In this document: in pieces, positions 699 through 61,898 of the stretch
Layout: each line of letters opens with the position of its first letter
Numbering within the stretch: position 1 is the first letter of the stretch
Assembly: GCF_039555335.1 (NCBI RefSeq)
Contig: NC_092646.1
Coordinates: 34,873,380 to 34,937,379, forward strand
Length of the DNA stretch: 64,000 bases
Direction: 5' to 3'
Source of the DNA: Amphiura filiformis
Taxonomy: Eukaryota > Echinodermata > Ophiuroidea > Amphilepidida > Amphiuridae
Made by a program: the position numbers and the translations under genes
Notes under the pieces: model-generated
The model's input: only the letters and a program-made list of their open reading frames with translations
The model's database searches: none
What the model was told of the DNA's origin: nothing

Positions 699-3600
699 CT
701 CCAAGCAGACATGATTCATATTCCCTGACTAATTCAATCCTTCCATCATCTGGCATTGCTTCCTCTGAGATGAATATGGCATCAACCTTAAAAGTATTTA
801 CAACACGATAATGAGAAAGGTGTACATATTTAGTGCATTAATTAAATTAATTAATTAAAAATAAATTTCATTCTACAAATCATATACTTTGAAAACTTGC
901 TTGATTTATTGTTGTTAATGAATTAAAAGCGTTGTTGTTTCAGTCATCTTTACAACATTACTCAAGAACCACAAGACCTGCAAATGTATATCTGTGATAT
1001 TTGAATTCTTCAACACACTCGCTATGAAATAATCAATGCAATTTTGCCAAAGCTCATATACCATTCCCAAGATGCTGTGAACTACCAAATCGCAACAGTT
1101 TAAAATAGTTGTTAACCTTAAAAGAGTATTATTTACCTCTCCACTTTCAAGGCCTTCTATAATGCTCTGGAGGTTCTTCGAATCTGTCTCATATCCAACC
1201 ACGTGGTCATCTCTGATGTCATAGCCCTGAATAAATCATCAAATAAGGGATTCATAACATTTAAAGCTCCCTCTAAGGGTGTTTGAAATAAATTATAAAA
1301 CAATTACGTAAACATTAATTTACTTTTATTAGCCTTATTTGTGTTACACACCTGGAAAAATTTATAGCGTTACACATCATTGTGACCGATCACAATGGTT
1401 CATTATGTAAAAATGAGGCCTTTTTAAAAGTTATATCTGAGTCCATAGGAGTCAATTCTAAAGATTGAGCGTAAAGTATTCCTGACACAGAATATTTTTA
1501 AACTTGTTTGAATTTGCCAAGTGAACAAAATTGCAACAATGTGATGGCTGAACACGCTTTACGAAACACAAAATAGCCATATCAGTTAGTGGAGAATTTT
1601 TGAGCTAATTACTTACAGTGACGCTGTAGAAACATGCCGAGTCAGCCCACCATCCAGTTAGAATACCAATCTTGATCCCATTAAGGTTGTCTGCATTAAC
1701 GCCGCTTGGATTGCCGCGGCGAGTAAGCAGCATAGGATGAGCTGATTTAACAACACTTTTTGAAAACTTGAGGGATCGGAGCCTTTCTGGCGAGATGCCA
1801 AAAGCTGACATAAACAAAAACGTGTGTTTCATAAATATTATTTATTTCTGGTTTGTATATGGGATTCCGATGGGGCTTCTGCTCCTATCCGCTATGATTG
1901 ATAAAACCTATTGGTTGAATACAAGGACATTTAAGACCGGCTTGCACTTTTGGATTCTGAAGGGGCTGAAAAGAATGTTTATCGCGATAGCGAGTATGGT
2001 CTCTACGTGATAAATTGAACTAAACAAATTCGCGAAACTCCAATTGACAATACAAACTTGCATCCTCTGGTCCTCTTACTATTAATATGTGTCCCACATT
2101 TTAAGTACCTTGGCAATATTTTTAATTTGGGAGCAATACAATTTGTATGTCACTTTATAAATATTTTGGCCTTTTTTTTACCGTATCAGAAAGTTTTTGA
2201 CTGTTGACACCCTAAAGTTGTTGTATACATCCCTTGTTTTACCTAAAGTTGATTATTTTAATCATATTTAGTCAAATGTCATAGTGCACTTATGTCCACG
2301 GCAAATTCACAGTGACCTTTCCAGCCATAAACCCACTTAGTGAAGATTAAACTGAGATATGCAGTACTAAACCATTATAGCAATCGATTGTCCAACGCAA
2401 ATTTATTACCACGTGATAATATTAATCCAATGAGCGATCGAATTGTCCGCTACGGTCGACTAATCAAATCGATAATGACGCTATTGAAATGTACGGGCGG
2501 AGCTCTACTGACTGAGTTTTGGGGTATTTATTCACTGGTTTGCTGTCATTTACTCATCAAGGAGGTCCCCCGTTATTATAAGGACTATGCTAATGATTTA
2601 AACCATACTTGATTGACGGAAAGTAGTGAAGTTGTACCTTTTACGGTTTCGTGACACTCCTCTTGCAAATGCGACCAAGCCAGGGCGGCCCGGTGAAGCA
2701 AAATGTGCATTGGAATAACACGGGGTTAAACGGCCAAAATAACCAGTAGGGTTACTTTCACTTTACCTTGTTATTTCAGCTCAAAATGGACAATTATTAC
2801 TAGTATTATTTTAGCATTTTGTGTATAGAATAACAAATTTAAAATTTGAAGAAAATCCTACATTAAGGGATGGGGTATGAACGTTTGGACAGAATTTATT
2901 GTGGGACATTAGAGCACATCAGACATATCGAATTGCATTCTGAATACGAAGAATGTCATTCTGATATCAAATAATTTAGATTTTTTGAAATTTGCAATGT
3001 AATACACCATTTGGTCTAATACCATTTGGTCTAATATCCATTTCGTCTACATCCATTTCGTCTAAACCCATGAGGTCTATATCCACTACGTCTATTAATC
3101 ATTTGGTCCTTTAACCATTTGGTCCGATAACCATTTGGTCCGATAACCATTTAGTCTAATAACCAATAAGTCTAAAACCATTTAGTCTAACAACCATTTA
3201 GTCTGATACTCATTTGGTCTATAACCAATAGGTATAATAGCCATTTGGTCTAATACCCATTTGGTCTACACACCATTTAGTCTTACAGGCATTTCGTTTA
3301 TTAATAAATAGACGAAATGGTATTAGACTAACTGGTTATTAGACCATACGAGTATTAGACCTAACGGTTATTAGACCAAACGGTTATTAGACCAAATGGT
3401 TATTAAAGAAATATTAGACCAAATGGTTATTTGACTATATGGTTAGTAGACATACCGGTTATTAGACCAAACAATATTAGACTAAATGGACATTAGACTA
3501 TATGATTATTAGACTAAGTGGCAATTAGCCTTTCTGGTAATAGACCAATTGAATATAGACTAAACGGGAATTAGACGAAATGGTATTAGACCAAATGGCA

Positions 3601-6600
3601 ATAGACCGTAATACACATTTTATGGCAAATGATTAAAAATTGATATTTTTGATATTTAACAGCACTCGAAGTAAACTTTATAAATCTGATGATTATACTT
3701 AAAGTGTATGAAGGTGGGATGAAAAGCCGACGATCAATTGAAAATTTTGACATTTCGTATTGAAGATATGGATTTTTTTCCTAAAATACCAAAATAAATT
3801 AGGTCTTTTTGGGAAAAAAATCCATATCTTCAATATGAAAGGTCAAAAGTTTGAATTGATAGTCGGCTTTTCCTCCCAGCTACATACACTTTAAGAATAT
3901 ATCAATAGATTTAGAAAATTTACTTCGAGGACTGTTATATATTAAAAATGTGAAAAATATCAAATTTCAATAATTTGTCATAAAATTTGTATTATATCGT
4001 GAATTTCAAAAAATGAAAATTATTTGATATCAGAAAGACATTCTTCGTATTCAGAATGCAATTCGATATGTCTGATGTGCTCTCATGTCCCACAAAAAAT
4101 ACTGTCGAAACGCTCAAAACGCTCATTCCAGATCCCTTAAGGCTATATCATAATAAAAATTAAGCTTACCCATACAACCGTCCAACCATCTGCCGAGTAA
4201 AGCTCTTTGGGGATATCCATCATACCAACAATCCTGCCAGTTAGTATCGAGAATCTCGCAATTCTTTCCCGCAATTCCACACACTATAAAGACAGAATTA
4301 ATGGGTCGTTAACGTATCCATCCACATATTATGTAACTTAAACACCGAGTGAGAGACCGTGGCATAGAGGTTAGAGGAACAGAAGAATCCACAGATACTA
4401 TTATGGCAGGTCTTCTCAGTAATAGGCCAATCAAATTAAGAAAAACAAAGGGTTAACCACTAATTGCAACAGAATCCATTTAATCAACATTCACTTCAGG
4501 AAAGCATGTTTGATAACAAGTTGGTAAGTTGGTGCAATCTTGTTAACACGTATACCAATATATTGCTCTCCTCATAAGGATTCAGATTCAGATTTTTCTG
4601 AATCCATATGACGAGAGCAATACTATGGTATGATTAGTAAGATTTGACTAAATTTGAAATTTCACCCTCTGCATAAGCGGCCATTTTAGATTTATGCAAA
4701 TTAGGCACTGTTCCACTACTTAGATTTTCGGGGACTTTTTAAATACGTTTTTATGTAAGTTTTTTGGAGATGGACGCATGCGAAATGGATTCTGCTGCAA
4801 TTAGTGGGTGGTGATTTTTTAATTTGATTGGCCTATAAGCCAGATTAACCTCCTACCGTAAAAACTCAATAGTTATTATTATGTGCTTACTATCGAGCGC
4901 TTTTGAAAACATGAAAATTGACCAAAGTCCGGCGCTTTACCAACTGAGCTAATGGGGCATACTGCAGTTACTGTCCGTTTTCCTTTACACAATACACAGT
5001 GCTCTCACCATTGACGCGCGACCTTTACAAATAGTGTATGAAGAAGTATATTGCATTTGCCTAGTTAACATCACTGTGTGAAAAATAACCGGCCAATATT
5101 TAAACTATTCTCCAAACTTCTAGCAAATATATTTCTCTAACATGACCTAAAATTACAGCTAGGTTAGATGTTCAGAAGGGGTCGCACTTTCGTAGAATAT
5201 GAGTGAGGGCAAAGCATAGCTAGCTCATAGCTAGCCAACTCCCCGTGTTAATTGAATGGAGATTTGACCGAAAATATTGAGCTATATTGGTAACGGACCG
5301 CTCCGTTCTGAAGGATGCCACAAAAAAACGGTACAAGCTACATTTAAACTATTCTATGAAATTCTAGAAAATATAGTTTTGTAACATGTCCTAAATTTTA
5401 GCTAATTTAGGTGTTTGGAGAGGTCGCACTTTTGTGTTTTAGGAAGGATATGTAAACGACAGATAACACCAAAAATATGAAGAAATTATTTCCAAACCGT
5501 GTTAAGTCAACAATCATTATGTTACTCATTTTCAAGAATGCTGGTTAACAAAAAGCAGGGCATTGTCTCATTTCGTGAACAAAGGTACACATACCATTGT
5601 TTCCTTCCGTTTCCTTTATAATCGGTTACCCAACTGAAGCTATAATACCAGCTTTATTGCGATATCGCACATTGAAAACAGACACATGTGCACAACCAGA
5701 GAAGATCCGATTTAATCAGTTGAGCTGTTTCAATGAGTGTTATCTTGGTTTAATAGCTTTTAATTGGGTTTAAGTCCTGCAAAGGTCGAGATGAATTCTA
5801 CTGTAGACATGACTGCATCATGGTAAACCCAGCCAACACAAAAAGTTTTTAAAAAACGTTTTAAATGGGTTATATTTTGTGTTTTGTTTTTGATAAAAAC
5901 GTTTTAATAACATTAAATGTCGGGTTATGTAAAGGGCATAAAAATGTTTTGTATGAAAACACACTTGCTACATATTTTTAATGTTGTCAAACTGTTGTTA
6001 TACGATAATATTTACAAACATTTTTTGCCAAATATTTTGCCAACACTTAAATAACAAAGTAATAAAAACGTTTTTTTACCCTTTACATACCCTTCATATA
6101 ACCCGAATAGTTGACATACATTCTGATTTGGGAACACTGGAATACCGTACAGTCGTATCTCAGTAAAATTAGCCAAATACTTGTATATTTGTATTTCTCC
6201 ATGGGCCGGTGGCCTAAAGACGTTATAAACAAACCTCAATATTTTTGCTCAGTAAATTGAATATTATCAGCCCGTATTACCTTCGTTTATAACGTCAATG
6301 AAATAGCCTCGCAATTGTCTGGTTTTCCGGTCTCTGAAATTTTAAGAATGAACAAAATTCTGAAAATCTTGTGTGTTACACAGAACCTTATAAACACATC
6401 AAAAGAAATAAGTCCCCCTCTGAACATGTCGTCATAACATTGTAAGGTTTCGTTTTGTATCAATAAAACTAACTTTGAAATAATTGAATATATGAATACA
6501 AAAGCCACCTAAGTCCATACTTTGGCCAAATTGAGTTAAGCATGGGAAATTGTTGCTATACATAGGCCTGTCATATACATGAAAGAACAACTCAAATTCA

Positions 6601-9525
6601 TCCCCTGTGTCTATTGGGCATGTGAAAAATAGCATGTATGAAAGAATCACCCAATTCCATGATTTGAGTCTTGTAACACATTGATTAAAATCCAGTATGT
6701 ATAAAAGTCCACTTGTAACACATTCATTGCTAGAGAATGACTTTTGAACAAAAAATGGGTTTAATAAAGGAAAGTGTGTGGTTACCCAACTGAAGCTATA
6801 ATACCAGCTTTATTGCGATATCGCACATTGAAATAAATTTAAAATGAACCCCACGAAGTCCCTGAAATGCTAATCGTCATACCTAATACAGGTTAATCCA
6901 CTCATTTGCACGTAAAACTTACCATATTGACCAGGTAAATCTAACTGAAGGAATTAAAATGATACACGGGTTTTTCTCTCAAAATAACTTCGCATGGACT
7001 TAGGTGGCTTTTGTATTCATGTATTCAATTATATAACTGTTTACTAAGTGCTGTGTGAAAATGAGAGATTGCCTTGACTTCAGGGCTTGAATTCTCCTAA
7101 ATTGAAGGCAAAAACTGCCCTTTTCAAAAGTCACAAAGTGGGCCTATGCTTGTCACAAAACTTGATTCATGGCTTGTTACTAATGGAAAACCCCATGTGT
7201 TTGAGTGCAGTTTAAAATCCTCACCAAGTGAACATTTACTGTAATTTGTATCGATTCTTGATCATTCTTGGCCAGTTCCATTCCTTGTCCCAATACGTCT
7301 TGCAGTTAACAAGCATAGGCCTACTTTGTGACTTTTGGAAAGGACAGTTTTTGTCTTCAATTTGGGTTCATTCAGCCATGAAGTCATGGACATCTTTCAT
7401 TTTCACAAAACACTTAGTAAACAATCATATAATTATTTCTAAGTAAGTTTTATTGGTACAAAGTTTTACTTTACGATGTTATGACGAAATTTTCAGAGGG
7501 AGACTTATTTATTTTGATGTGTTTATAAGCATGATAAGTGAATACGTATTTGTGTATTTGAGTTTGTAATTTCCTGTAGTTATGTGCTTTTCACACATTC
7601 CAATCATGGAGTTTGTTCACGCGTGAAATTGTATTGAATAATGCACGGGTGCAGAGATTAGATGTGTCTAAGGCCTCGTATCCATAGGCTGTTCCCTTGT
7701 GGCGTGTGCCCTTGTTCCGTGTTTACTTTTTCCCATGTGACCTGCCACACAGACAACGAACCTTTGTTTTGCTTAGTGGCCGCTACGGTTCGTTGTCTGT
7801 GTGGCAGGTCACATGGGAAAAAGTAAACACGGAACAAGGGCACACGCCACAAGGGAACAGCCTATGGATACGAGGCCTAATGCACGAGCCCCGAAAGGGA
7901 GTGGATTAGACGCATCAACATCTCAGTACAAGTGCATTTTATTATACACAATCGATGCACTCTGCGTACTTTTTCTAATTGCTTTTCTGATTTGCTGCTT
8001 TGATATAGGAGTTCATACATTATATATATCTACATATCAACACACACACAAAATTTCCAGTATATGAAGACGGATAGCTTCAAAAGATGCCTAATACTAT
8101 TATACGCCTAACCTTGGACGTACAAGATTACATCTGATCTTGGAAGTCCAAGAATTATTTTGCGGTAGACTTAAATCGACAGAGACTTAATTCAGCCTCC
8201 CTAAATCCGCCATTTTAGGCAAATTTGCTACATTATGAGCACCATATGTAAACCTATAGAAAGCACATTTTCTATCAATTATTTTACACCATCTCCCGAC
8301 ACTCCCAATTAATATTTAGCCCGTGCGGTTGATGCAGATTCCGACCAGACCATTCGTGGAATTTTGTAAAAAATATTCCATACTAAATGTCAAGTCTGTA
8401 TTTACTATAAATACTAACATGTAGATGTTACGGTTTTCCAAATTTCCCGCATGGAAAGACCAAACTGATTCATCATAGTGCAATTCATTGCCGGCACTGC
8501 TACCACTAGGATAATCTGGAATGCAATCAATCACATTTATAGAAATTCGGATTAAATTCGACGTTATGATAAGGAGTGATTGCAAACTCTGGTTTTACAT
8601 GGGATCATCTGTTGTTAATAACCACACACAACATACACACACACACACACACCCCCACACCCCTTCCACCCACACACTTAATATACATCCCACAAACACA
8701 AAACAGACATACTAATTCGAGTGCATCACATAGTGGCGTATTGAGGCAGGATACGCCACTATGTGATGCACTTTTTTCCTATCTATACATACGATACGCC
8801 ACTTCATACACGATATACCGTAAAACCTCGTCTACAAGCAAATAGATTGCTTTTGATGAAAGCTAAATTAATCCAGGCTTCTTCCATACACAAATTTATA
8901 ACGTTGTGGAGTTTGAGCGAATAAATTATAGATACAAGCGTATACAAACAAGTATTATTGTTAGACCGATCTATTGTATTGGCATATTGACGGCGGTGTC
9001 GTATTAATTTAGCTTTTATCACAAACACTCTATAACTCTAGACGAGGTTTTACGGTATACCACCATCATGTAGGTTTTCCATAAACTTCAGAAAAAGTGT
9101 ATCACAAAGTTGCATATGATGGCAGAAGTAATGCACCCGACGAAATGCCAAAATTAATTTATTGTGTCAGGCAATTTGTATAAGAAGGAATTTATACCTT
9201 TGTGAGACAATTTATCTCATGTTCATAATTACATGAAATGATCATCTGCCGGTTGAAAACAAACAAGCAATGAATCCAGAATCCAAACCGTTTTGAAGAA
9301 TATTATTTCTTTACCCATGTTACCTCCATAGTGTTGATCATATCCGCCCGAATCGGAGCTGTCCACATTGATATTAATAGGTGCTTCACCGCCTCTGTTA
9401 TAATTCAATATTGATATTACCATTCCAGCCGCAGCTACAATCCCGACAATAAGAACCAGAATGCACAGGAGGACAAATACACTGCCTCCTCCTCCATCTT
9501 CTTTTGCGTATTTTCCTTGTCCCAT
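699..9525 (-). CDS. Gene A: type II membrane-anchored solute-binding-protein-like protein, exons 1-7 (3' end outside window)
   Basis: Coding exons in transcript order: 9525-9315, 8515-8419, 6333-6281, 4283-4170, 1804-1617, 1226-1137, 786-699. All junctions have GT/AG ends and the frame stays open for 841 bases. Exon 1 gives a short tail (MGQGKYAKED), a glycine run with one Gly more than its paralogs, one hydrophobic segment (about residues 16-40) and an N-Y-N-R-G-G stop. The rest resembles a family 3 periplasmic solute-binding domain: W-S-F, G-Y-F-I-D-V-I, C-x6-C, S-P-E-R-L-R-S-L-K-F, N-L-N-G-I-K-I-G, G-E-V-D-A-I-F. The start codon is the Met conserved in all four copies. Exons 8 and 9 should lie left of base 1, because in gene C exon 8 is about 1.5 kb beyond exon 7. 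Exon 4 joins exon 5 with Ala where the paralogs have Gly. Expression is unproven. Confidence 0.85.
2085..2275 (+). repeat. Remnant of a LINE reverse-transcriptase 3' region (gene A intron 4)
   Basis: Matches the better preserved copies at 35160 and 54730, which translate on the plus strand to a K-Y-L-G-I motif and an I-G-L-F-Y-R-I-R-N motif typical of the end of non-LTR reverse transcriptases. It is heavily decayed, opposite in strand to the gene, and sits in the same intron in A, C and D. Confidence 0.5.
2863..4140. repeat. 1.28 kb TTAA-flanked foldback element with an inverted motif array
   Basis: TTAA at both ends (2863-2866 and 4137-4140), imperfect inverted termini TTAAGGGAT...ATCCCTTAA, and outer arms of several hundred bases (about 2867-3000 and 4000-4136, with inner arms at 3720-3900). 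The centre is an array of about 16-base units: CCATTTGGTCTAATA in forward orientation from 3005 to 3300, then the reverse complement from 3305 to 3610. TTAA ends suggest piggyBac-type mobilisation (inference). A 5' fragment occurs at 22334. No protein is encoded. Confidence 0.7.
4361..4422 (+). repeat. tRNA-like (box A) SINE head in gene A intron 3
   Basis: The run GAGACCGTGGCATAGAGGT resembles a tRNA box A. Homologous copies lie in the same intron of B (18087) and D (56253) but not C. The tail continues after a 413-base insert at 4836. Confidence 0.4.
4423..4835. repeat. 413-base TA-flanked palindromic MITE inserted in the SINE-like sequence
   Basis: Termini TAGGCCAATCAAATTAA and its reverse complement; arms about 55 bases, then an inner hairpin at 4561-4586 / 4597-4622. 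The gene D intron lacks it: sequence equivalent to both sides is continuous near 56333. No coding capacity. Confidence 0.65.
4930..4972 (-). repeat. tRNA-like 5' half (box A only)
   Basis: The minus strand reads GCCCCATTAGCTCAGTTGG followed by TAAAGCGCCGGACTTTGG, a good tRNA 5' half with D-arm and the start of an anticodon arm. No T-arm or box B follows, so this is a fragment or SINE head, not a working tRNA gene. Confidence 0.45.
5828..6115. repeat. Fragment of the CCCAGC...GCTGGG MITE family
   Basis: Begins CCCAGCCAACACAAAAAG and carries the family's AAAACGTTTTAATAACATT and GTCGGGTTATGTAAAGG parts, then fades before exon 3 of gene A. Better copies are at 44437 and 50861. Confidence 0.55.
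7671..7878. repeat. Near-perfect 92-base-arm hairpin with 24-base loop, TA target
   Basis: Left arm 7671-7762, right arm 7787-7878, loop 7763-7786. I see no mismatch between the arms. It splits a sequence that is continuous at 56893-56905 in gene D, and the flanks read TA on both sides, so it is a recent insertion of a hairpin element. Short open frames on the two strands start identically only because the arms mirror each other. Confidence 0.8.
8636..8705. repeat. CA-rich microsatellite
   Basis: A run of AC dinucleotides with C-rich interruptions in gene A intron 1. Related C/A-rich tracts sit at the same place in C (41880-41955) and D (58140-58215). Confidence 0.8.
8723..8772. repeat. Hairpin with GTGCATCACATAGTGGCGTAT arms
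   Basis: Arms of about 21 bases around a 9-base spacer, with TGCATCACATAGTGG and its inverse. The same arms occur in gene D (58247-58292) and one arm in gene C (41963-41985), all in intron 1, so the repeat predates the duplications. Confidence 0.6.
8816..9057. repeat. 242-base TA-flanked MITE
   Basis: Inverted termini ACCGTAAAACCTCGTCTA at left and the complement at right, TA on both sides, non-coding interior. Absent from the matching sites in C (about 42045) and D (about 58330), so it inserted after duplication. Confidence 0.7.
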
Positions 9526-10095: not shown

Positions 10096-10151
10096 ATTGG
10101 TCATTGATAATAATTTTTTAAACACTTACCTTGTTGACGACTTGATTGGTT

Positions 10152-11990: not shown

Positions 11991-12028
11991 CAAAATTGGA
12001 TAGTATACAAATATTTACTGTCTATGAG

Positions 12029-12498: not shown

Positions 12499-15400
12499 TT
12501 AGAGGTTGACGCATATGTCAGCAGCGGAACTGCCAGGTTTGGACCCTGTAAAAAGTAGAGAAAAAAGCAGAATATCAATGAATACGTACGTAGGTTTGCA
12601 TAAAGTGTTATTTATGTTTAAAAAAAAGCTTATAGAATGTTTACTAATTTTTTATCCGAGTGTTTGTTTTAGAGTAGTGGTCAGCCAGAAAGAAACATTT
12701 TTATGAACAGTATTCAGTAAAAATTGCACTTGTCGGATAATGGGCTATTTCATTTAAAATCCATACTACCCCTATGGAAGATTTTGGAAATATCTTCCAC
12801 AGAGGGAGTATGAATTTCAAATGAAATTAACACATTAGCAGATCCATTTGAAACTCACTCTCCCTCCAGGGAAGATTCAAGTTGAATCTTTCTCAGAAGG
12901 TGTTTGAAATTCAAATGGAGCTGCTAATGTGTTAATTTCATTCGAAATTCGTACTCCTACTGTGGCAGATATTTTCAAAATCTTCCACAGGGGTAGTGTG
13001 GATTTTAAATGGAATAGCCCAATATCATTTGGTATGGTAGTACTTTTTAAGATGGCATACGGGTATGTTCAACAGCTTTGGGTGTATTTTCAAGAATTTT
13101 GGTATAGCGATTCACCCTCATACACCCATTGGGCGCATTTTGGGAAATTTATCCTCGAAAGCACCCAAGTTGGACAAAATTAGGTGTTTTTTGCGTGTTA
13201 ATGGGCTCTAAAATTTACTTATTACGTGATGCAGATTAAATATACTAACCATGAGCAGCAGGATCATCTATATCGTTACAGATTTCACGGTAGGCTCTTG
13301 AATTGACAAGTTTGTTAAAGGCTGGATCCCACCAATTCTTCAAAAGAGAATCTTTGCGCATCATCAAGGAGTCTCCTGTAAATAAGAAAAAAGAACTATT
13401 CTGTCAAAAGACCGTTATATGGGAATTTTATGATCCACAGCATCATCCCCCCACTTTTCTAAAAAAAGTTGAGATTTTTGTATCACTGGAAACCTCTGGC
13501 TACATAATGTTTATGTATAAAATATTTCTTGCAGATTAATTCATTTAGCAAAGATATCATGAAATTTGAATTTCATTCTGGTATATCAGAACGAAATTAC
13601 AACACATTGTCTATGGAGCAGTGTAATACACAAAATCATGCATAACTCGCAAACGCAAAACCGGAATCAACTGAAATTTTGGGAATAAGCTTTTTTCGTG
13701 GATATGTACTGAAAAATGTTATAAAAAGAGGATGCTAGGATCACGAAATACTGCTTTAATTTCAAATTAGTATTTTTAGTTCACATTAGACAACACTAAG
13801 GTGAACGAACGTTAACGCGTAACGTAAACGTGAGATGTCACGTGATGCCGTTGGCGTGTTAACGTACCGCGCTGACGTATCATGTTGACGTATCACGTAT
13901 GACGTTCACGTCTTCCGCTGACGTACCGTGTTCACGTATCGCGTACCGGTCTGTTTGATCAAAATTTACTTTATTTGGGCACATTTTAACACTGAAACGG
14001 TTCACATTTGTATAGGAAAATCAGCATTGCAGCGGGTGAGTGGGACGATTTGTATTGTGTTGCACATCGGTACTCTGCGTGCCATAAGATTCCGCCAATC
14101 TTGGCGCGGTCGCGCTATAAACTCCGGTCATTTCTTCTGTTATTGATATATTGATCTGCACTACAAGTATACTGTATATATCACATGCCATGTCTGTATA
14201 TGCCATGTACATGCCATGTCTGTGTATGTATGCAATCATAGATAGAATACAATACCGGTCTTTTTGAAGACTCTACTCGGACAGATGTGATTAAAACATA
14301 CATTGACCTAGTATGATAGAAAAATTCTATAGAATTACGATCCAGGTCTTTGTGTCTATGTCTATTCTTTGATAATCAATGGTGCGATGCACAGTAACAG
14401 CGCACGTCTAGTGCAGGGCAATATATTCAGAAATTGTTTCACCTGTCGCTATGGTAATTAATCCTGTCAATCACTATACTTCTACGGCGAATATTATAGT
14501 CAACTGGACGAAATAACTCCGTATGCACCTTCTGCCACAGAATAAAGCAGAGTCTTGTACATACAGGGTGATTTAAAATGAACTGTACCTATTTAAAAAA
14601 ATATTTGCGGAGATTGTATACATTAAAAAACTATCATAGAAAGCAGTGATACGTGTTTTGTAGTAGATATTTTAATTTTGATAATGAGTGGTTTTAGTCA
14701 GAAGATATCGCATTTTCAAGTTAGCATCCCATTTTAGACCAACACACAGAACTACTGTTAAATAATAAAATGTAGAACGAAGGACCCGTTGACTTGAAGT
14801 TATAGAGGTAAATTTGAATTCAAAGAGAAATGGTGCTGGTGCAATATCCATACATTTGTAATTTAGACCTGATTTTGTCACCACTTCTATATAGGAAACA
14901 TGGCTACTATCTTATTACAGCTTGCAATATAAAATTATTTAAATGTCGGTAAGTATTTAATTTTAATTGTATTTATTTATCAATTCATCTTATTTTCGTT
15001 TTTAAATAAACATGCGCAATTTATGTTGAACTGAAAGCGTCTGAGGCAATTGAGTGAGCAAAATGCTGTAGAACAGATTGTTTGAATATAATTCTTATCC
15101 GTGTGCAACATCGTTTTTAGTGTGTTTTCTAAGAATGTACTTTTCTTCAAAACCATCAGAGGTAAAGACATGGTTATTTCACCATTATTAAGAAACGCAC
15201 TATCCTGTTACGGCTTACAAACACAAATTATTCAATGCCGGTAAGTATTTTATTTAAATTTTTGAAGTTGGGTACAGTTAATTTTAAATCACCCTGTATG
15301 CACAGTGAGAATAGGCAGTAAAATTTGACGGCTTGGTGGTCAAACGCCAGTTAGTGGTCCTAAACAGCATGCAGCGAGGCTGTTTTTATAGGCTTTGACC

Positions 15401-29615: not shown

Positions 29616-29689
29616 GTGTAACTTTAAGTCTACACAGAGCATGGAGAAACGTGTATTCTTTGAGTTAACTTAGAGTTTGACACATGTGT

Positions 29690-42969
<13,280 letters not shown>

Positions 42970-48692: not shown

Positions 48693-51369
48693 TTAGAGGT
48701 TGACGCAGGTGTCGACAGCGGATTTTCCAGGTATGGATCCTGTAAAACGTAGATAAAATCATAGAATACCAATGAATACTTAAGCTTAATGTGTTATTAA
48801 GAGAAAAGTAAATGAAAACACACTATATAGGTATATACGTAAGATTGTGCTTGAAACAGATTTACAGAATGGGTCTCCTTTTGCATTTTTATTTTTGTTT
48901 GTTTGTATTTTGTTTTAGAAGAATTTTAGAACAGCAAAGATTTAATATAGCCTACTAACCATGAACAGCAGGGTCATCTATATCATTACAGATTTCACGG
49001 TAGGCTCTTGAATTGACAAGTTTATTAAAGGCTGGATCCCACCAATTCTTCAAGAGAGAATCTTTGCGCATCATCACTGACGGTCCTGTAAATAGGAGAA
49101 GAACATTATGCTGTTTGGAGTTTGTAGTTTTTATTTTCACTCCATCCCAGCTATCAATTTTTCGTTGTTACAACGTCGTCTAAAAGTTATATAAAGTCGT
49201 ATAAACGTAATATATGGACGTTGTAAGTACGTAAATCTGTGAACTCGTATTCGTGTTGTGACAACGTTATTTCCGAACGTTAATGTAACGTTATTATGAT
49301 GTTGTTTCGACATCAAGTTGTAAACGTCGAAACAACGTCACTATGACGTTATATCAACGTCCGAAAATAACAACGTTCACAAATTAACGCAATTACGACG
49401 TCCGTTGATTACGTTGTATCGGGGTCAGACCATGGCATTTATACGGCGTTGTAATAACGTGCTTTATACGTCGAGACAACGTGATTATGACATTATATTT
49501 TAATGTTAAAACATCCGGCAACAATGATGCTCAATCCCAAAAAGGGAGAGCGTATAAACATTCAAAGTTTAGAAATCCAGGAATAGAAGTCGTGACTTTG
49601 AGTTTTACGCTAAAGGCGATTGTCAGACGATACGATGGAGACATTTTGGCTGGACAACCATCTCCTTGGAATGGAAGAATTTACATTCCATGGTGTCAAC
49701 ATCCAAACTATTTTTCAGATTCGTATTTGTGTGACGTTTTCTGCACGTATTATTCAAACGTTGTCACCAGGTCTGGTCAAACATTGCATCAACGTCGAAA
49801 CAACGTCATAATGACGTTATACCAACGTCCAAAAAGCAACGTCGAAAATAGCGTTGTCACTACACGAATACGAGTTCACAGATTTACGTATTTACAACGT
49901 AAATGACAACCTAAGTCCAACGTCAGCGAACGTCGTGAAAATGTAGTGTGTTAGCTGGGATAACGCATCAATATCCGGTATATTCGAGAGAGTTCATATG
50001 CCAACACTTACATTAACACATACACAGACGTCAGTTAAATCAATTCACCTTTTGGGGCGCCCGCTACGGTGGTGCCCCATTATTGCTTGAATTTGCAAAT
50101 TGCTTCAAATTTCGTTTTTTCTAGATTTACTTTGCATCTGTTTTCTTGAAAAATACGTGCTTAGCTAACTTTGTTTTGATTTTATTACTGTTTATTAATA
50201 TGCATTGAATGCAAGTACAGTAGTTCAATATACAGCAGTAATTAGCGCTTAAAATACGAAATTATTGAAAATGTCTTGTAGGGAGGTCTTCTAAACACGC
50301 AAACGCCATTACATGCAATCAAGAGATTTCAAGAGATGGCCCTCTGAACACAGAGTACGATCCAGGTGAAGTGCGGCATGATTTACTGGAATAAACAGAG
50401 ACGACATAACCGCACACTCGTATGACACGTATTTTGCCCAATAAAAGAGAAAGTGAAGACTGGTTTCCTCGGTAGAGAGCCTGGTGTCCGATTTCTTGAT
50501 TTCTTGTAGGGGGTGCATGTGTGTTCGTGTGTGTGTGTGTGTGTGGGGGGGGTGTGGGGGGGTTGAGAGGTGTGTGGTGGGTAGGATGGGTAGGATGGAA
50601 GGGGTCCACAAAATCCACAATTTTATTTTCCTAGATAATTGATTGATTTTGTATTCCGGTACTACGGGCTGGCGGATTTTTAAAGTTTGGTCGGTCAGTT
50701 GGGCTATTGTTTTTGAAACTCATTCCTCAGCATATAACCGCTGAACGTAGGCTGTTTCAGTTGCGTATTAGTTTGATGAGTGAGTATAGTCTGATCAATT
50801 GTCTCAAATACAGCGCTTAGGTCTAACAAGGCCAGAACTGCCTAAGTATTCGAATGATTACCCAGCAAACACAAAAACGTTTTTAAAACATTTTAAATAA
50901 GTCATATTTTGGGTTTTGGTTTAGGTAAAAACGTTTTAATAACATTAAAATGTCGGGTTATATAAAGGTCATGATAACGTTTTAAAACGTTTTGTATGAA
51001 AACACACTACAACAATATTTTTAATGTTTTCAAAAAATGTTATTGGGCTTATTTGGCCTCTCCTTCACATGTTTTTTTTTTCACCCTTTCATATTATTCT
51101 CTTTCGTTTTCAAAATCTACTGAGTTACTGGTACTTTAATTAACTTTTTGTACAAATTAAATTTGTATCATTAATTGATATATAATCATAATCTTGCTGT
51201 GTAAATATTTTTATATAAATTTGTCCTACTATATATAATTTCGGAAATTGCGATTGTGATTTGTAATATAACCATTTAATTCTGTATTATCATTCAGATA
51301 CATTTCATTATGTTACCAACTTAATTAAATTTGTTTTTGTTATTGATGCTTAAATTTTGTATATAATAC

Positions 51370-51401
<32 letters not shown>

Positions 51402-52957
51402 ATTTTGGAAATATTGTTATCTATATATATGTGAAATCATGTGTGAATAAATTGAATGAATGAATGAATGAATGAAACTATTTTTGCAAACATTTTTGCC
51501 AAATATTGTGTCAATACTTAAATAACATTATGTTCAAATATTTGAACCCAGCAAACACAGAAATGTTCTTAAAATGTTTTTTCAAAACCTTTTAATGACA
51601 TTTAAATGTCGGGTTATATAAAGGTCATGAAAACGTTTTTAAAACGTTATTGAAAATATTTTGGGCAAACATTTTTCGCAAAATATTTTTTCAACACCAA
51701 AATAACATTCTGTTTAGAATGTTTTGTATCAAGCTTTCAAGAACGTTTTTGGAATGTTATTAAAACGTTTTTATACCCTTTATATAACCCGACATTTAAA
51801 CGTTTTCTGTAAAACATTATTGTTTGCTGAGCAGTAGATTATCAAAAAAAGTATTTTAAGGTTATGAAAACGTTTTGTACTCTTAATATACCCTTTATAT
51901 ATATAACCCGACATTTAAACATTTTCTGACAACCTTTTATAACCTTTTGCGAATGATGTCGAAAACGTTTTGTGTTTGCTGGGTAGTGAATGAGCCTGAC
52001 CCCTCAGATGGGAGGTGTTTGGTACCAGTTGGGGGGAGGGGGCAAAGCTGCACTGCTATCAGAGATAGATGACATCATGGGCTACACAAAAATGCCTGAT
52101 AGCAATTGAACCGGGGTAGCTTTTGGCGTGAAAAGGTCATCAAACTTTACACAGGGTCAAATTTCAAACTTGCACAAATTGTATTCAAAACTATTTCTCT
52201 TGACACAAGGATTCAGGAAATGTATAGTTTGACCTATTTAGGACGTACCGTTTTTGAGTTATAGCCTATAAGAGGCTGTGCAATAATTACGAAACCTGGT
52301 GGGACGGTAAAATGGGCAGGGGGGGGGGGCGCAAGTTCTTAACTGTTCTTAACTAGACCAACCAAAATAAGGTTGCAGCACGTACCTCCAAACAGACATG
52401 ATTCATATTCCCTGACTAATTCCAACCTTCCATCCTGTGGCGCGGGTGCTTGAGCTGAGATGAATATGGCATCAACCTTAATAATATTTACAACAAGATA
52501 ATGAGAAAGGTGTACATATTTAATATTTAGTGCATGTAATATTTAGTAAATTAATTAAATTAATTAAATAATTAGCGTAGCTAGAGCTTGTGGCGCCCGG
52601 GGCAAGGGTACATAATTACGCCCTCCGTAAAATAATTACGCGCGGACCGCGCGAAAAATTTTAATAATAATTTTGGTTATACTGAATTTCAGTGAATATC
52701 GGTTTGCTCGGTAGAGTGAATATCGGTCTTAAATGAAATTGATCTTTCAAATGAGTATTTGTGCTGAAATTCTCACGAATCGCAAGAAAATTTTGACTTT
52801 CACTGTTTGGAGGGGGCACAAAATCTATGCTATATTGGTCAAATTGGCGTTCCTAAGGTGGCGCGCAGGGCACGTGCCCCCCTCTGCCCCACGTCGCTAT
52901 GCCAATGTTTCAGTTTTATATCGTTAGCAAAACGTAAGATCCCTTTTGGGTGGCAAT

Positions 52958-53048
<91 letters not shown>

Positions 53049-56000
53049 TCTCTCTTATACTTCCGGCTCACTCCATGGTTGTCTTAATTATACCAATAAC
53101 ATGGACTATTAAAAATATTATTTACCTCTCCACTTTCAAGGCCTTCTACAATGCTCTGGAGGTTCGATTCAGTTTCATATCCAACTACTTGGTCATCTCT
53201 GATGTCATAGCCCTGTATAAATCATCAAATATAGGATCCATAACTTTTAAGTTCTCCTGAAGGCTTTTTGAAATAAATGATAAAACAATTACGAACTGTA
53301 AACATTTAATTTGCTTTGATTAGCCTTATTTGTGTTTATACATACCTGGACAAATTTATAGCGTCACACATCATTGTGACCGGTCACAATGGTTCATTAT
53401 GTGACGTTCATTATGTAGCAGTCAAGTCAGCTCAATCGGTAAGGCGTTCGACTATGGTGCGAGAGGTTGCGGCTTAATGGAATGATGTGTTTGTTAAGGG
53501 GATGAACATGATGAATAGGCCGGCCTATTTTACTGTTTTAAAGTTGTCTCCTATGGAATTTTTAAAACGGCCTCATTTTTTACATTAAAAAAAACCCGCA
53601 GTGATTTATAGTGCGCTACCCACAGGCACAACGCCTAGACGTTGATCCACAGGCCTCAGCATACTTTACAGATTGTCGCTGACCACTACGGTCCCACACC
53701 ATTCCATAAACCATTTAACAACAAATCAGGGACTTTGCTGCTTCAAGAGCGCACACCCTAGACATTCCACAAATAACCTTCGCAACCAGGATCAGCTACC
53801 CGAGTTTCGTACGGGTTACAACGAGACAATTAGCAGTAAGTTCCTTGTCCAAGGGAATTTCAAGCTAACTCAATTTTTCAACGAGAGCGTACTACACGGT
53901 TGTTTGATGTATATAGAATTGGCTTCATTATTAACTAAATGCAAACTATAGATGGCGCTATTTATCCTAAATCATATTTCTTTATTTGCAAGGGGTAGGT
54001 GATTAATACTCTCATTAAAACAGCTGGAATAGGTGAAACAAGCAACATGTCTGACGCTATACATTTGTCCATATTAACATTTTTTAAACCATTTTTCCAT
54101 TTATTTCGAAAAGCGTCTTAACCAAATGGCCTAAGAAGATTCAGTATTCCTGACACAGAATATTTTCAAGATTTCGAAGAGAACAATGTGATGCTACAAT
54201 GTGATGGCCGAACGCTTTACGAAGAATCTTTGAGTTAAATACATGACTGAACTTACAGACACGCTGAGGAAACATCCCAAGTCAGCCCACCATCCACTTA
54301 GAATTCCAATCTTGATCCCATTAAGGTTGTCTGCATCTACACCCCTTGGATTGCCGGAGAGAGTAAGCAGTACAGGTCGATCTGCTTTAGCAGTACTTGT
54401 TGAAAACTTGAGGGATCGGAGCCTTTCTGATGAGATGGCAAAACCTGACACAAAGAAAAACGTGACAGACAATGATATTTATTTCTGGTTTGTACATTTG
54501 GGATTCCGAAGGAGCTTCTGCTCCTATCCGCTGTGATTGAAAAACTATTGGTGGAATAGAAGGATATTTAAGTCATGTAAAGACTGGCTTGCATTTTGGG
54601 AATCTGAAGGGGCTGAATACGGGGCTGAATAGAATGTTTATTGTGATAGCTAGTATGGTCTCCGATTGTTTAAACTAAAAGAATTCGCGTAACTCCATTT
54701 GACAATACAAACGTGCATCCTCTGGTTCTCTTACTGTTAATATGTGTCTCACATTTTAAGTATCTTGGCATTTTTTTGACCAGCGGTTAACCTGTAAGCA
54801 CCAAATTGATAAAATTTGCATGTCTATTTATAAATATATTGGTCTTTTTTACCGTATCAGAAATGTTTTAATTGTTAACTGTTGACACCCTAAGGTTGTT
54901 CCCTTGTTTTACCTAAAGTTGATTATTGTAATCTTATTTGTTTTTTGATCATTGTAAATATCATACATGTCTCAAATTTTTTAAATGTCGGGGGGTACCT
55001 GGGGCGCTGATAACCCCCCCCCCCCAACCTCTGCAATATAAGTTTATTGATGATTATAATAAGTACAGTCTCAGATCAACTACTGGGAATTAGGTTATCA
55101 ATAAGATGTGAACTGAGACTAGCAAGAGAACTTTTCTGTTTAGGGGGCCTGGAATGATCTTCCCCGAAATACCTGCCAACACAAATGTTTCAAGAACATA
55201 TATAGTAACTTGCAATAATCTCTCCAAATTTTCCTGTTTAACTAACGTAAGGTTACGCTTAGTGGTGCATATAGGCTTCCTGGACAATAAGGGTTTTGGG
55301 TGTGGGCTGGGAGTCCCCCCAGTGGAGGTCCCACCTGCAAATGAGGGGGCTTTTATGTCTGTGCGTGATTTCTTTTTCATGGCAGGAGAGCCTATGTGCA
55401 CCGCTGGGCGAGTCCTTGTGGTATTTGGGCTTATGCACTTTCTTAATATATGGGGTAATTTTAAATATTTTCTTTTCTTTTATGCAGCTTTTGTAAATGT
55501 AATAATTTTATGTAATTTTAATTTCTTTTAGCTAGTATGTGCATAAATTATATGGTATTAATTGTATGCCTTCTATGTATATTTTAAAATAATTGTGCTG
55601 GTCACTGATTGCATGTCCAAGGTTAAAGAAGAAATAAATAAATACATTTGTTTATTGAACTATCAAAAGTTTTATCAAAGTCTCAAAGCAAATGGAGTAA
55701 TAAAAGTTAAGGTTACCCATACAACCGTCCAACCATCTTCCCAGTAAAGCTTGTTGTGGATATCCACCAGCCCAACAATCTCGCCAGTTAGAGTCGAGAA
55801 TCTCGCAATTCTTTCCGGCAATTTCACACACTATAAAGACAGAATTAAGGTTAGCAACTGTTTTAAACTGTTGCTATTTGGTAGTTCACAGCATCTTGCA
55901 AATGGTAGTGAGCTATGGCAAAAATTACATTGATCATTTCATAGCGAGTGTGTAGAAGAATTCAAATAGCACAGATATAGTTTTGTAGGACCTATGGTTC

Positions 56001-58842
56001 TTGAGTTATGTTGTAAAGAGGGCTGAAACAACAACACGTTTGTAAAACGTACATAACTCATTAACAACAATAAATCATGCAAGTTTTCTAAGTATATGAT
56101 TTGTAGAATGAAATGTTGCAAAACATCAAAGTTCTATTTTCAAAAATATATTAATTACGATAATGAGAATCGATTTTTTTGGCTGCTTGGACAAAAAATA
56201 CATCGTGTACCCTTTATGGATCGTTAACGTAACATCCACTTAAACATGGAGTGAGAGACCGTGGCGCAGAGGTCAGAGGGACAGAAGAAACCAGGTCCTT
56301 TCCAGATACTGTTATGACATGTCATCTCATTATAAGCCAAATTAACCTCCTATTCCTTTGTTCATGGTTTCCTATAAAACATGCCATTTTTGTTTATTGT
56401 AAACCCTTAGGAGTAAACTGGGTTAATCGCAGTTTATTATGATCCTATCATTTGTAAGTGTGTTCTTCTGATTGTTTTTAATACTATTAATTGACCATGT
56501 TGGAAAAATCTGGTTTTTAGTTTGAAAATTCTAAAACGTTATTGAAAGTTTTTGCTTTTCTCCATGGGCCGGTGGCCTAAAGAGGTTATAAATAAACCGC
56601 ACTGGAAATATTTTTGCTCAGTAAATGGAATATCATTAGCTCGTATTACCTTCGTTTATAACATCAATGAGATGGCCTCGCAATTGCCTGGTTTTCCGGT
56701 CTCTGAAATTTTAAGAATGAACAAAATTCTTGTGTGTTAAACAGAACCTTATATAAGTAAATACATGTGTGTTTATGCGTTTGTATTTCCTGTTGTTATG
56801 TGCTTTTCACACATTCCAATCATGGAGTTTGTTCACGAACGTGTATCACTTGAATAGAGTGAAATTGTACTAAATAATGCACGGCTACAGAGATTAGATG
56901 TGTCTAATGCACGAGCCCCGAAGGAGAGTGCATTAGACGCATCAACATCTCAGTACAAGTGCATTATATTGTACAATATCTCGAGCAAAAATTGAGTACT
57001 ACATTTATTAACCTTTCATACACGAGAACATTTTATAACAAATTGATCACTACAAATATTGGAAAATAGAACCAAACATAAATGCATCATCCCGTCCAAA
57101 ATTGAATCAATCCTATGTGACGCGAACGCGTGAGAAAGCACTGCGCGAAGTACACGGAGTGCCATTATACACAATCAATGCACTCCGCGTAGTTTTCTAA
57201 TCATTTTCTGATCGGCTGCTTTAATATAGGAGTGCATGAATTTTCTATATTCACATACCAACATACACAGATGTTTTACAGTGTATGAAGGCGGATAGTT
57301 TCAAAAGACGCATACTACTATATACTTAACGTCCAAGATTACATCTTGGAAGTCCAAGAACTATTTCGTGGTAGATTCAAATCGTATTCAATAATTGACC
57401 AATGGACGTCCAAGAAAATCTTTTAAGATTTCTAAAATCTTAGGCGTCTAAGATTTCATTGGCCAGGAATTAACACGCTTATATTCTTGGAGGTCGAAGA
57501 ATTTTTCTGCATATTTAATGTTAAACGTCAATTGCATCTTGGACGTCCAAGATTAGGCGTATAAACTTAGACGTCTTTTGACCACGGTTTGAATGTGTGA
57601 AAAATTATTTCCACGTGTGGGCAAATTTACAAGACAGGGTCCATTTTGTAGTTATGTTGTGTGAGTGTGGGTATGTTACTTAACTCTCTCCACGCGGGTG
57701 TCGACTGCAGACGACAAGTTTAAAAAAACCCTCAAAAATTCATACATTTCAGAATTGTAAATGTTCATAATCATATTCGAAATCAGCATGAAAAGTGCAT
57801 TAAAATGAGTACAAACAAGCCTAGTATTGGTTCAGCGGTTTTGAAGACAGCATGTGATATTTTGAGAAAATATTTCAAAACTTGGGACTTTTTATGTTGA
57901 AACCTATAGCTAGCATGTAGAGTATTAATGTATTTACTATAAATACTTACATGTAGATGTTACGGTTTTCCTTATCTCCCGCAAAAAAGGACCACACTGA
58001 TTCATCATAATGCAATCCATTGCCGGCACTGCTACCACTAGGATAATCTGGAATGCAATCAATCACATTTATAGAAATTTCAATTAAATTCGACGTTATG
58101 ATAAGGAGTGATTGCAAACTCTGCTTTTGCATGAGATCATCTGTCGGCCACATACAACATACACACACCGCCCCCATCCCACCCCCATTTCCACCCACAC
58201 ACATATATACATCCTACACACAAAACAGTTATAATAATTCGAGTGAATCAGATAGTGGCGTATCATGGCAAGATACGCCACTATGTGATGCCACTATTCG
58301 ATACGATACGTCACTTCGTATGATACACCACCATGTGATGTAGGAAAAACAATAAATATAGGAAAAAGTGCATCACATAGTGTAGTATTGGGGCAGAAGT
58401 CATAAACCCGACGAAATGTCACTAAAGTGAATTGATTATTTCAGGCAATTTGTAAAAGAAGGAATTTTTGCCTTCGTGAGACATTGTCTCATATGTTCAT
58501 ACTCTTCAATTACATGAAATGACCATTTGCCCGATGAAGATAAAATAAGCAATGAATCCTATTTAGAGAGAATTTCTATACCTGCATTACGTCCTCCAGA
58601 ATCCAAACCGTTTTGAATATTATTATTTCCTTACCCATGTTACCTTCATTGTGTTCTTCATATCTGCCCGAATCGGAACCTTCCACATTGATATTGATAG
58701 GTGCGTCACCGCCTCTGTTATAGTTCAATACTGCCATTACCATTCCAGCCGCAGCTACAATCCCGACAATAAGAACCAGAATGCACAGGAGGACAAAAAC
58801 ACTGCCTCCTCCATCTTCTTTTGCGTATTTTTCTTGTCCCAT
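48693..58842 (-). CDS. Gene D: type II membrane-anchored solute-binding-protein-like protein, complete
   Basis: Nine coding exons: 58842-58635, 58047-57951, 56702-56650, 55830-55717, 54444-54257, 53212-53126, 52476-52386, 49085-48960, 48739-48693. Total 1011 bases, 336 residues plus stop. Residues 1-14 form a polar tail, 15-39 a single membrane segment with Cys20, and 40-78 an acidic/Gly linker. The solute-binding-like domain follows: G-H-L-I-D-V-I (about 111-117), Cys121 and Cys128 spaced as in HisJ/LAO, W-L-D-G-C-M (152-157), Arg165 at the ligand-carboxylate position, lobe 2 start N-L-N-G-I-K-I-G, Trp209-Trp210 where bacterial proteins have a small hydroxyl pair, V-D-A-I-F-I-S with Ser256 where HisJ has its ligand Asp, and a Cys312/Cys333 pair near the end. 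There is no signal cleavage site and no second membrane segment, so a type II surface or luminal protein is inferred. Function and ligand unknown. Confidence 0.88.
49146..49959. repeat. 814-base foldback with CCCAGCTA termini and AACGTC repeats
   Basis: Ends CCCAGCTATC and GTTAGCTGGG, like the CCCAGC family but with a different interior: multiple AACGTCGAAACAACGTCA motifs and long arms (TGTGAACTCGTATTCGTG against CACGAATACGAGTTCACA). It sits just before exon 8 of gene D in intron 7. An open frame inside is not credible as a gene. Confidence 0.7.
50519..50585. repeat. GT/G-rich microsatellite
   Basis: TGTG repeats merging into a G-rich run in gene D intron 7. Confidence 0.85.
50861..51983. 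repeat. CCCAGC-family MITE split by a nested insertion
   Basis: Full termini at both ends. Aligned with 44437-45133, the element is interrupted at about 51046-51475. Confidence 0.75.
51046..51475 (+). repeat. Nested LINE/SINE 3' fragment with GAAT tail
   Basis: An AT-rich segment ending in AATTGAATGAATGAATGAAT, inserted within the MITE. A short tandem tail after a 3' region is typical of truncated non-LTR elements. It contains an (AT)n run at 51376-51400. Confidence 0.6.
52570..52905. repeat. Transposon remnant in gene D intron 6, shared with gene C
   Basis: TTGTGGCGCCCGGGGCAAGG at left, GGCGCGCAGGGCACGTG at right. Homologous to 33105-33385. Confidence 0.6.
52963..53056. repeat. (TC)n microsatellite
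   Basis: About 90 bases of pure TC in gene D intron 6, 70 bases from exon 6. Confidence 0.95.
53424..53482 (+). repeat. Degenerate tRNA-like sequence
   Basis: AGTCAGCTCAATCGGTAAGG resembles box A; the downstream GGTTGCGGCTTAA is a poor box B. Likely an old SINE head in gene D intron 5. Confidence 0.35.
54725..55650 (+). repeat. LINE 3' fragment in gene D intron 4
   Basis: Homologous to 35160-36090. The segment near 54830 translates to K-Y-I-G-L-F-Y-R-I-R-N-V-L, as in the C-terminal part of non-LTR reverse transcriptases, with frameshifts and a stop. Ends near AGAAATAAATAAATA. Confidence 0.55.
56251..56350 (+). repeat. tRNA-like SINE head in gene D intron 3
   Basis: GAGACCGTGGCGCAGAGGTC has the best box A of the three copies. 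Same intron as in A and B, so it predates the duplications. Confidence 0.45.
58247..58292. repeat. Hairpin in gene D intron 1
   Basis: CAGATAGTGGCGTAT and ATACGCCACTATGTG arms around a short spacer; counterpart of the 8723 hairpin. Confidence 0.6.
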
Positions 58843-61764: not shown

Positions 61765-61851
61765 GTCCGGAGATATGTGACCTGATTGTGTCCCCCGGAT
61801 TGGTTAGATTATACGTTATTCTTTAGTGAAAAATATTTTCTATGATTTAAT

Positions 61852-61898
61852 TTAGAGGTTGACGCATGTATCAGCAGCGGAATTGCCCGGCTTGGATC
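61852..61898 (-). CDS. Gene E: final coding exon only, rest outside window
   Basis: A 47-base exon with the same acceptor (TTTTTACAG) and entry phase as exon 9 of B, C and D. It encodes S-K-P-G-N-S-A-A-D-T-C-V-N-L and a TAA stop. It differs from gene B's last exon by two residues (N for S, T for I), and about 2 kb of downstream sequence also matches gene B, so E is probably a B-type paralog. Exon 8 was not found between 61.9 and 64.0 kb, so exons 1-8 should lie to the right of the window. Confidence 0.75.

Follow-up and report, generated by a model that had tools for sequence, protein, structure and literature searches.

To our knowledge, solute-binding proteins of the bacterial type are not expected in animals, because animals lack the importers that these proteins feed. 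A 64,000-nucleotide stretch of the genome of the brittle star Amphiura filiformis (hereafter, the window) was predicted to carry five linked, intron-containing genes encoding such proteins, which raises the question of what these proteins are, what they may bind, and how they might work in an animal.

Structure of the gene array

Three complete genes (A, B, and C), each with nine coding exons and encoding 335-344 amino acids, were assembled on the minus strand of the window. Gene A (48693..58842; 336 aa) comprises exons 58842-58635, 58047-57951, 56702-56650, 55830-55717, 54444-54257, 53212-53126, 52476-52386, 49085-48960, and 48739-48693. Gene B (29670..42969; 335 aa) comprises exons 42969-42762, 41810-41714, 36609-36557, 36274-36161, 34887-34700, 34035-33946, 32676-32589, 31103-30981, and 29716-29670. 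Gene C (12499..21395; 344 aa) comprises exons 21395-21197, 20020-19891, 18480-18428, 18025-17912, 17672-17485, 16888-16802, 15548-15458, 13375-13250, and 12545-12499. Gene D (699..9525, minus strand; 280 aa) is cut by the low edge of the window and retains seven of nine coding exons (9525-9315, 8515-8419, 6333-6281, 4283-4170, 1804-1617, 1226-1137, and 786-699); its final two coding exons are expected past that edge. The fifth gene is represented by its last exon only (61852..61898, minus strand; GSKPGNSAADTCVNL, followed by a stop), which is homologous to exon 9 of A-C and identical in its letters to the C-terminus of the NCBI model P0001, and the rest of the gene falls outside the window, past its high edge. 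Thus, the predicted count of five linked genes held for three complete genes, whereas one is truncated and one is a single exon. The predicted span (699..61898) was exact: it begins at the base that closes exon 7 of gene D and finishes at the base that opens the terminal exon of the fifth gene.

In A-D, all internal exon boundaries were of the AG...GT type, giving GT-AG introns, and the joined frames were open and free of stops until the end. The NCBI model P0003 was the same as gene C across 258 identical amino acids, after which it runs into intron 6. At the level of sequence, the gene models A-D are independently supported by P0001 and P0003. The motifs of the original prediction (C-x6-C, ER-x-R-S-x-K-F, NLNGIKIG, and GE-V/I-DAIF) were all present in the joined coding sequences, with the second block reading DR-I-R-S-V-K-F in gene C, and the proposed local amplification was supported.

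The pairwise identity among A-D was 70.5-87.1%, with dN/dS values of 0.41-0.66. Over whole genes, non-synonymous differences per site were fewer than synonymous differences in all six pairs, significantly so in five (Fisher p < 0.05; the exception was A-D, p = 0.10). A chance run of motifs was ruled out by the identity, dN/dS, and per-site difference tests. No segment tested among the A-D pairs showed a significant non-synonymous excess. Positive selection on the head was unsupported, as among the segments tested pN exceeded pS only for exons 5 and 7 combined in pairs A-B (0.127/0.112, p = 1) and A-D (0.155/0.098, p = 0.23). Single-exon point values of dN/dS, which carry no significance test, exceeded 1 for exon 2 (A-C, B-C, and C-D), exon 5 (A-B and A-D), exon 6 (B-D), and exon 7 (A-B and A-D).

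Family and fold of the binding domain

The PF00497 profile (gathering cut-off of 26.4 bits) was matched above its cut-off by A (28.2 bits), B (26.7 bits), and C (33.5 bits), with E-values of 4e-8 to 5e-6, and all 71 family rows matched it at E <= 0.01. Among ten family rows scored singly, one fell under the cut-off (P0010, 25.1 bits). Gene B matched ArtJ in the PDB at 6e-5. A structure model was built for the close paralogue P0001, which stands in for A-D; it was confident, showed the complete two-lobe PBP2 fold with helices at the C-terminus, and had LAO and ArtJ as its best PDB matches. The predicted architecture of one membrane segment followed by a complete family 3 domain with a C-terminal helix was upheld by the profile matches and by the model of P0001.

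For A and C, the scores against TIGR01096 (the NCBIfam lysine/arginine/ornithine family) were 19.7 and 22.2 bits, below its cut-off of 256.35 bits. The label "HisJ/GlnH-type" applies to the fold rather than to what is bound. The 71 family rows matched six families at E <= 0.01, none of them a glutamate-receptor family, and by sequence the family is nearer to bacterial SBP3 proteins than to glutamate receptors. The core of animal ionotropic glutamate receptors (iGluRs) was absent among the 50 matches listed, which is not evidence of absence. A lone iGluR core was rejected on the family profile matches.

Binding pocket

We take R77 of LAO to be the lobe-1 arginine binding the ligand carboxylate and D161 to be the lobe-2 acid anchoring the alpha-amino group. 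The arginine (R173 in P0001) was found in 75 of 75 family rows and 17 of 19 bacterial rows; in gene B, exon 5 (34700..34887, minus strand) carries it in the ER-x-R-S block together with the start of lobe 2 (NLNGIKIG...GWWAD). The lobe-2 Thr or Ser of bacteria is replaced by an aromatic residue in 68 of 75 family rows, and A, B, C, and D have Trp at column 217 of P0001. Exon 7 of gene B (32589..32676, minus strand) carries the IDAIFIS block, with Ser at the place of the bacterial Asp that anchors the amino group. At this column (264), Asp or Glu occurs in 5 of 73 family rows versus 17 of 19 bacterial rows, and A-D have Ser; hhalign agreed with the register, and when one column of slack was allowed (263-265), an acid was found in 23 of 75 rows, including B and D (Glu at 265). 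With its lobe-2 anchors replaced, the family does not resemble proteins that simply bind amino acids, and "arginine-binding", the label assigned automatically, may be a misnomer for all of its members.

Membrane segment and topology

The membrane segment of gene A (58714..58800, minus strand; residues 15-43, VFVLLCILVLIVGIVAAAGMVMAVLNYNR) was placed from the helix and the hydrophobic peak of P0001, and B, C, and D have a segment at the matching place in exon 1. The helix spans residues 13-43 in the P0001 model, in which the hydrophobic peak begins at residue 15, and the predicted topology leaves a cytoplasmic N-tail of approximately 14 residues ahead of it. The N-terminal helix has no obvious cleavage site, and the head has eight conserved cysteines. 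These features fit a type II layout, with the N-terminus inside and the head outside or luminal.

Slow evolution of the anchor was clear only in pairs with C; in the pairs lacking C, p was 0.007 for A-B, 0.053 for A-D, and 0.83 for B-D. As exon 1 was slow at synonymous sites too in the pairs with C (p = 0.002-0.011), gene conversion may explain part of the anchor constancy. Conservation of the anchor relative to other family clades was not found in 14 pairs (z of -0.9 to 1.5). A family-wide membrane motif was rejected, since z exceeded 2 in only 21 of 105 representative pairs and in no pair involving the window clade (0 of 14). Within that clade, P0007 lacks the anchor and P0010 begins with a signal-like stretch, so a membrane partner would not be needed by every member.

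Transporter partner

No ABC permease or ATPase was recognized when ten reading frames from the window were compared with Pfam; further genes may be concealed by introns, and partners need not be linked in animals. The noted lack of a transporter partner stood in that none was recognized, within a search covering these ten frames. Two of the frames hold array exons (window:918-1235, exon 6 of D; window:36321-36773, exon 3 of B), and none gave a match at the curated cut-off. The latter frame had one weak Pfam match (E of 0.057), which was taken as chance. Scanning the window for tRNAs and Rfam families gave zero matches.

Distribution and origin of the family

Relatives were found in all five echinoderm classes, hemichordates, the brachiopod Lingula, and the priapulid Priapulus; they include at least two models from the sea urchin S. 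purpuratus. Chordates, cnidarians, molluscs, and single-celled relatives gave no match in a search that detects only sequences sharing 5-letter words and that does not demonstrate absence. In a careful tree, 13 bacterial rows split from all others at 100/100; eleven Amphiura rows make up the window clade (100/100), which has a long stem and its own membrane segment. The 49 bacterial loci found were 21-29% identical in their best segment. Of the predicted bacterial or PBP2 origin, the kinship with family 3 was retained, whereas local acquisition was not, given the relatives in four animal phyla. Any bacterial entry must be ancient, because the family is shared by echinoderms, hemichordates, a brachiopod, and a priapulid, and the window array is a later expansion within an older family. 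The tree appears compatible with either ancient transfer or descent with loss and does not separate them. This old animal family is apparently undescribed; among the open-licence literature matches listed, no treatment of an animal SBP3 family was found by title or abstract start, which is weak evidence.

Comparison with known systems

The window family shares the PF00497 domain and the two-lobe fold with LAO, HisJ, and ArtJ, and it has two features in common with bacterial rows: C-x6-C, present in 12 of 19, and the arginine for the carboxylate, present in 17 of 19. Unlike LAO, HisJ, and ArtJ, it has an N-terminal membrane helix, eight introns, and six further conserved cysteines, while no importer was found and the lobe-2 Thr and Asp are replaced. 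Animal models named "L-arginine-binding protein-like" or "arginine-binding periplasmic protein-like" (Asterias, Saccoglossus, Ptychodera, Amphiura, and others) belong to the same family, as they share the conserved cysteines, the arginine, and a single tree with the window genes; their "arginine" names come from the sources, and no ligand test was found behind them.

SLC3 heavy chains cross the membrane once in type II orientation, carry a large ectodomain of a bacterial enzyme fold, and form a disulfide via a linker cysteine. The window proteins would resemble them in the single type II pass and the large head of bacterial ancestry, but the SLC3 head has an amylase fold, whereas the window head is a binding protein. 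Compared with iGluR ligand cores and GluR0, the window family lacks a pore between the lobes and an iGluR profile match. Unlike the PBP2 sensor domains of histidine kinases (3h7m), the window proteins have no kinase or other cytoplasmic domain, with about 14 residues before the helix. Venus kinase receptors are reported to have heads resembling class C GPCRs, and the window proteins lack their kinase.

Proposed function and alternatives

On balance, we lean towards the window proteins being type II flytraps that serve as receptors or co-receptors at the cell surface or in a lumen, encoded in a tandem array and probably binding a carboxylate ligand. We infer their topology, ligand class, partner, and role as follows. 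Each would have a short cytoplasmic N-tail, one membrane helix, a linker, and a disulfide-stiffened Venus-flytrap head outside the cell or in the lumen of a vesicle. The invariant arginine of lobe 1 would hold a carboxylate (or another anion), and lobe 2 would shut on the rest of the ligand with an aromatic wall in place of the bacterial Thr and Asp, which makes a plain alpha-amino acid an improbable ligand. The closed, loaded head would most likely act via a membrane partner as a receptor or co-receptor, since no importer was found and only approximately 14 residues are cytoplasmic. The partner may be bound partly through the helix, which hardly varies among the anchored members of the window clade, and local duplication would yield copies in which the anchor is retained and the head changes.

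A rather unlikely alternative is scavenging or immune recognition, in which tethered or shed flytraps, diversified by duplication, would bind microbial or dietary small molecules in coelomic fluid or mucus with no signalling. A tandem array in which the heads diverge and the anchor stays more constant would suit such a role, as would the relatives that look secreted by eye (P0010 and P0013) and the recurrence of immune-related terms among expanded and contracted echinoderm gene families in one report (PMC11310086), but the absence of a significant non-synonymous excess in every segment tested speaks against it. A role as auxiliary subunit to a carrier of amino acids or organic acids, passing substrate to an SLC transporter by analogy with SLC3 heavy chains, seems improbable: the N-terminal helix, short N-tail, substrate-catching head, and rather constant membrane segment would agree with it, but A-D have no cysteine in the linker that follows the membrane segment from which to form a disulfide of the heavy-chain type, and no carrier domain was found in the ten reading frames tested.

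A glutamate-receptor ligand-binding domain stripped of its channel is highly improbable, as the 71 rows matched SBP_bac_3 and no glutamate-receptor family (E <= 0.01), the only membrane-type helix of the P0001 model is N-terminal, with none separating the lobes, and C-x6-C is common to 12 of 19 bacterial rows. The bacterial fold and PDB matches could also suggest a recent bacterial transfer into brittle stars, or contamination, but this is scarcely credible; it is contradicted by the eight introns per complete gene, the relatives across four phyla, the low identity of the bacterial loci found, and the separation of the 13 bacterial tree rows.

Beyond the receptor or co-receptor role favoured for the window proteins, a broader and tentative proposal, which we hold to be doubtful, is an ancient bilaterian family of anchored flytrap receptors derived from bacterial amino-acid binders. 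Its specificity would have shifted to a carboxylate other than an amino acid, and it would serve chemosensation or metabolite sensing alongside the glutamate and ionotropic receptors, with dozens of brittle-star copies having different ligands.

The array belongs to a disulfide-rich, mostly membrane-anchored animal family that is conserved in at least four bilaterian phyla and has retained the carboxylate grip, with amino-acid recognition apparently rebuilt. It raises the testable questions of which small molecule the heads bind and by way of which partner an animal makes use of a bacterial flytrap that has no transporter.

Gene Structure of the Array

Self-comparison revealed coding blocks recurring along the minus strand of the window. 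Manual assembly of the exons, with AG and GT required at every internal boundary, gave genes that are shown by sequence, with predicted splicing, and are stop-free over 336, 335, and 344 residues (A, B, and C, respectively) and over 280 residues in gene D, which is cut off by the window edge. The copies shared 70.5 to 87.1% pairwise identity, with dN/dS of 0.41 to 0.66. Over the whole genes A–D, non-synonymous differences per site were fewer than synonymous differences in all six pairs (p < 0.05 in five); judged by this pattern of sequence change, the array genes are under constraint and not remnants.

A protein search with gene B as the query retrieved nine models, all from Amphiura filiformis. 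P0003, the NCBI model of gene C, equaled that gene over 258 residues and then continued as NVFLKRYNKRT, exactly as the window reads when translated onward into intron 6, where the model ends (gene C stretch 16760-16888, minus strand). P0001, a close paralogue, ended in GSKPGNSAADTCVNL, which is also the sequence encoded by the last exon at 61898-61852; because of this match, P0001 is very probably the fifth gene, with its body outside the window. No model equal to A, B, or D was found among the tree rows, the searches covering proteins between 0.55 and 1.75 query lengths, so that a fused model would escape. The public annotation of the array thus looks incomplete.

Repeats and Other Elements

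Self-comparison also located a minisatellite built of roughly 73-base units at 10142-11351, with copies near 29380 and at 43548-43784 and 45154-45393, whose open frames merely mimic protein. Long arrays of an 8-base unit (29856-30225 and 32769-33134), together with a CT-rich tract in 10-base steps (15592-15974), give rise to many of the window's long open frames. Two blocks were repeated between the gene units, one at 20110-20409, 44743-45042, and 51588-51887 and the other at 44460-44632, 50873-51045, and 25886-26058. These blocks were 81-96% identical, lay outside the coding exons, and may represent mobile elements or duplicated pieces of introns. A short plus-strand frame (35103-35420) containing KYLGIICDQRLTLEHQI, reminiscent of a reverse transcriptase remnant, had no match in Pfam.

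Distribution and Phylogeny of the Family

The domain and its fold are already known; for the window proteins, the fold is shown by proxy through the modeled structure of P0001. Databases already contain models of the family, labeled for example L-arginine-binding protein-like. Among the open-licence papers listed by full-text literature searches, none was identifiable by its title or the start of its abstract as a description of the family, and six locus names gave no papers. The main text of the A. filiformis genome paper (PMC11310086) contains no words beginning with horizontal, arginine, solute-binding, or bacterial, and passages of PMC2950845 are concerned with prokaryotic glutamate-receptor channels.

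Three protein searches gathered 78 relatives (P0001-P0078), which established the distribution of the family. By their printed names, A. filiformis contributed 21 models on a contig of 60,072,021 bases and 15 on other contigs, 27 came from other named animals, 13 had no species assignment, and two were bacterial (P0077, 2e-5; P0078, 5e-3); as the queries were mostly from Amphiura, copy numbers are no fair comparison between species. The other echinoderm genera were Asterias, Acanthaster, Patiria, Holothuria, Apostichopus, Strongylocentrotus, Lytechinus, Diadema, and Anneissia, which with Amphiura represent all five echinoderm classes. Relatives outside echinoderms were found in Ptychodera, Glandiceps, Saccoglossus, Lingula, and Priapulus. 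A prokaryote scan of one genome per species (84,980 species), using two patterns taken from alignment A3, yielded 49 loci encoding a relative, with best-segment identities of 21-29%.

Alignment A4 held 71 of the 78 proteins, excluding the fragments P0008, P0009, P0073, P0074, and P0076 and the bacterial P0077 and P0078. The tree input comprised 75 family rows (A4 and the four window genes), eleven of which are not proven animal, and 19 bacterial rows: P0077, P0078, and 17 of the 49 loci, a set thinned chiefly by removing Aeromonas. In a quick tree that included very long rows, the split between bacteria and family was supported at only 44. Once 19 rows had been removed (the long L037, L038, L049, and P0075, the truncated P0003, and 14 near-copies), the careful tree, which had 75 rows, placed 13 bacterial rows apart from the rest at 100/100. 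Priapulus, Lingula, and P0072 formed one side of the family (98/83). The other side comprised all remaining family rows (95/77), and within an 11-row Amphiura clade (100/100) lay the window genes. This branching order fits descent within Bilateria and is silent on an earlier entry from bacteria.

Conserved and Replaced Residues

Eight cysteine columns were conserved in A4, five in 71/71 rows and the others in 69/70, 69/69, and 67/68 letters. The first two (C-x6-C) were both present in 12 of the 19 bacterial rows, as in the family, whereas the remaining six were found in none. Residues were compared with three positions of the bacterial protein LAO: R77, which binds the carboxylate, D161, which anchors the alpha-amino group, and D30. 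The arginine equivalent to R77 was retained in 75/75 family and 17/19 bacterial rows. The D161 column held D or E in only 5 of 73 family rows (two others had a gap), compared with 17/19 bacterial rows, and was Ser in A, B, C, and D. When hhalign was used to align the family with 16 bacterial rows (E 1e-24), this column kept its register; one HMMER alignment to LAO placed a gap adjoining it, and with one column of slack either way, an acid occurred in 23/75 family rows, including B and D. Column 217 (P0001 numbering) was Thr or Ser in 17/19 bacterial rows, compared with W, F, or Y in 68/75 family rows and Trp in every window gene, and column 121 (D30), which was Asp in 18/19 bacterial rows, had Leu or Phe in A–D. 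This pattern suggests that lobe 1 keeps the carboxylate grip and that lobe 2 has acquired a new recognition.

Membrane Anchor

Within the window clade, the membrane segment was nearly invariant in P0001-P0006, P0008, and P0009, while whole-protein identity to P0001 was 50-60% for P0002, P0004-P0006, P0008, and P0009. Two members of this clade differ: P0007 lacks the segment, and P0010 starts with a signal-like stretch. Between clades, the segment showed only weak conservation: of 105 pairs compared, 21 exceeded z 2, and the 14 pairs involving the window clade contributed none of these. In P0044, a family member from Diadema setosum, part of the N-terminus is repeated and two hydrophobic segments are predicted; either the anchor was duplicated or the gene model is wrong.

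In each of the three pairs that include gene C, non-synonymous change was lower over the first 54 residues than over exons 3-7 (p ~1e-5 or less); the p values without C were 0.007 (A-B), 0.053 (A-D), and 0.83 (B-D). Synonymous change was also lower in the C pairs (p 0.002 to 0.011), a hint of gene conversion in exon 1. Since synonymous sites are slow too, gene conversion of exon 1 would explain the slow anchor as well as selection would.

Proposed Mechanism

A cysteine-rich head behind an N-terminal anchor points to a type II topology, and the protein would act extracellularly or in a lumen. Its ligand would carry a carboxylate but would not be recognized as a plain amino acid. The chief rival explanations are scavenging and service to a carrier. 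In the proposed mechanism, the protein would act via a membrane partner, because a cytoplasmic tail of approximately 14 residues would hardly be expected to signal on its own.
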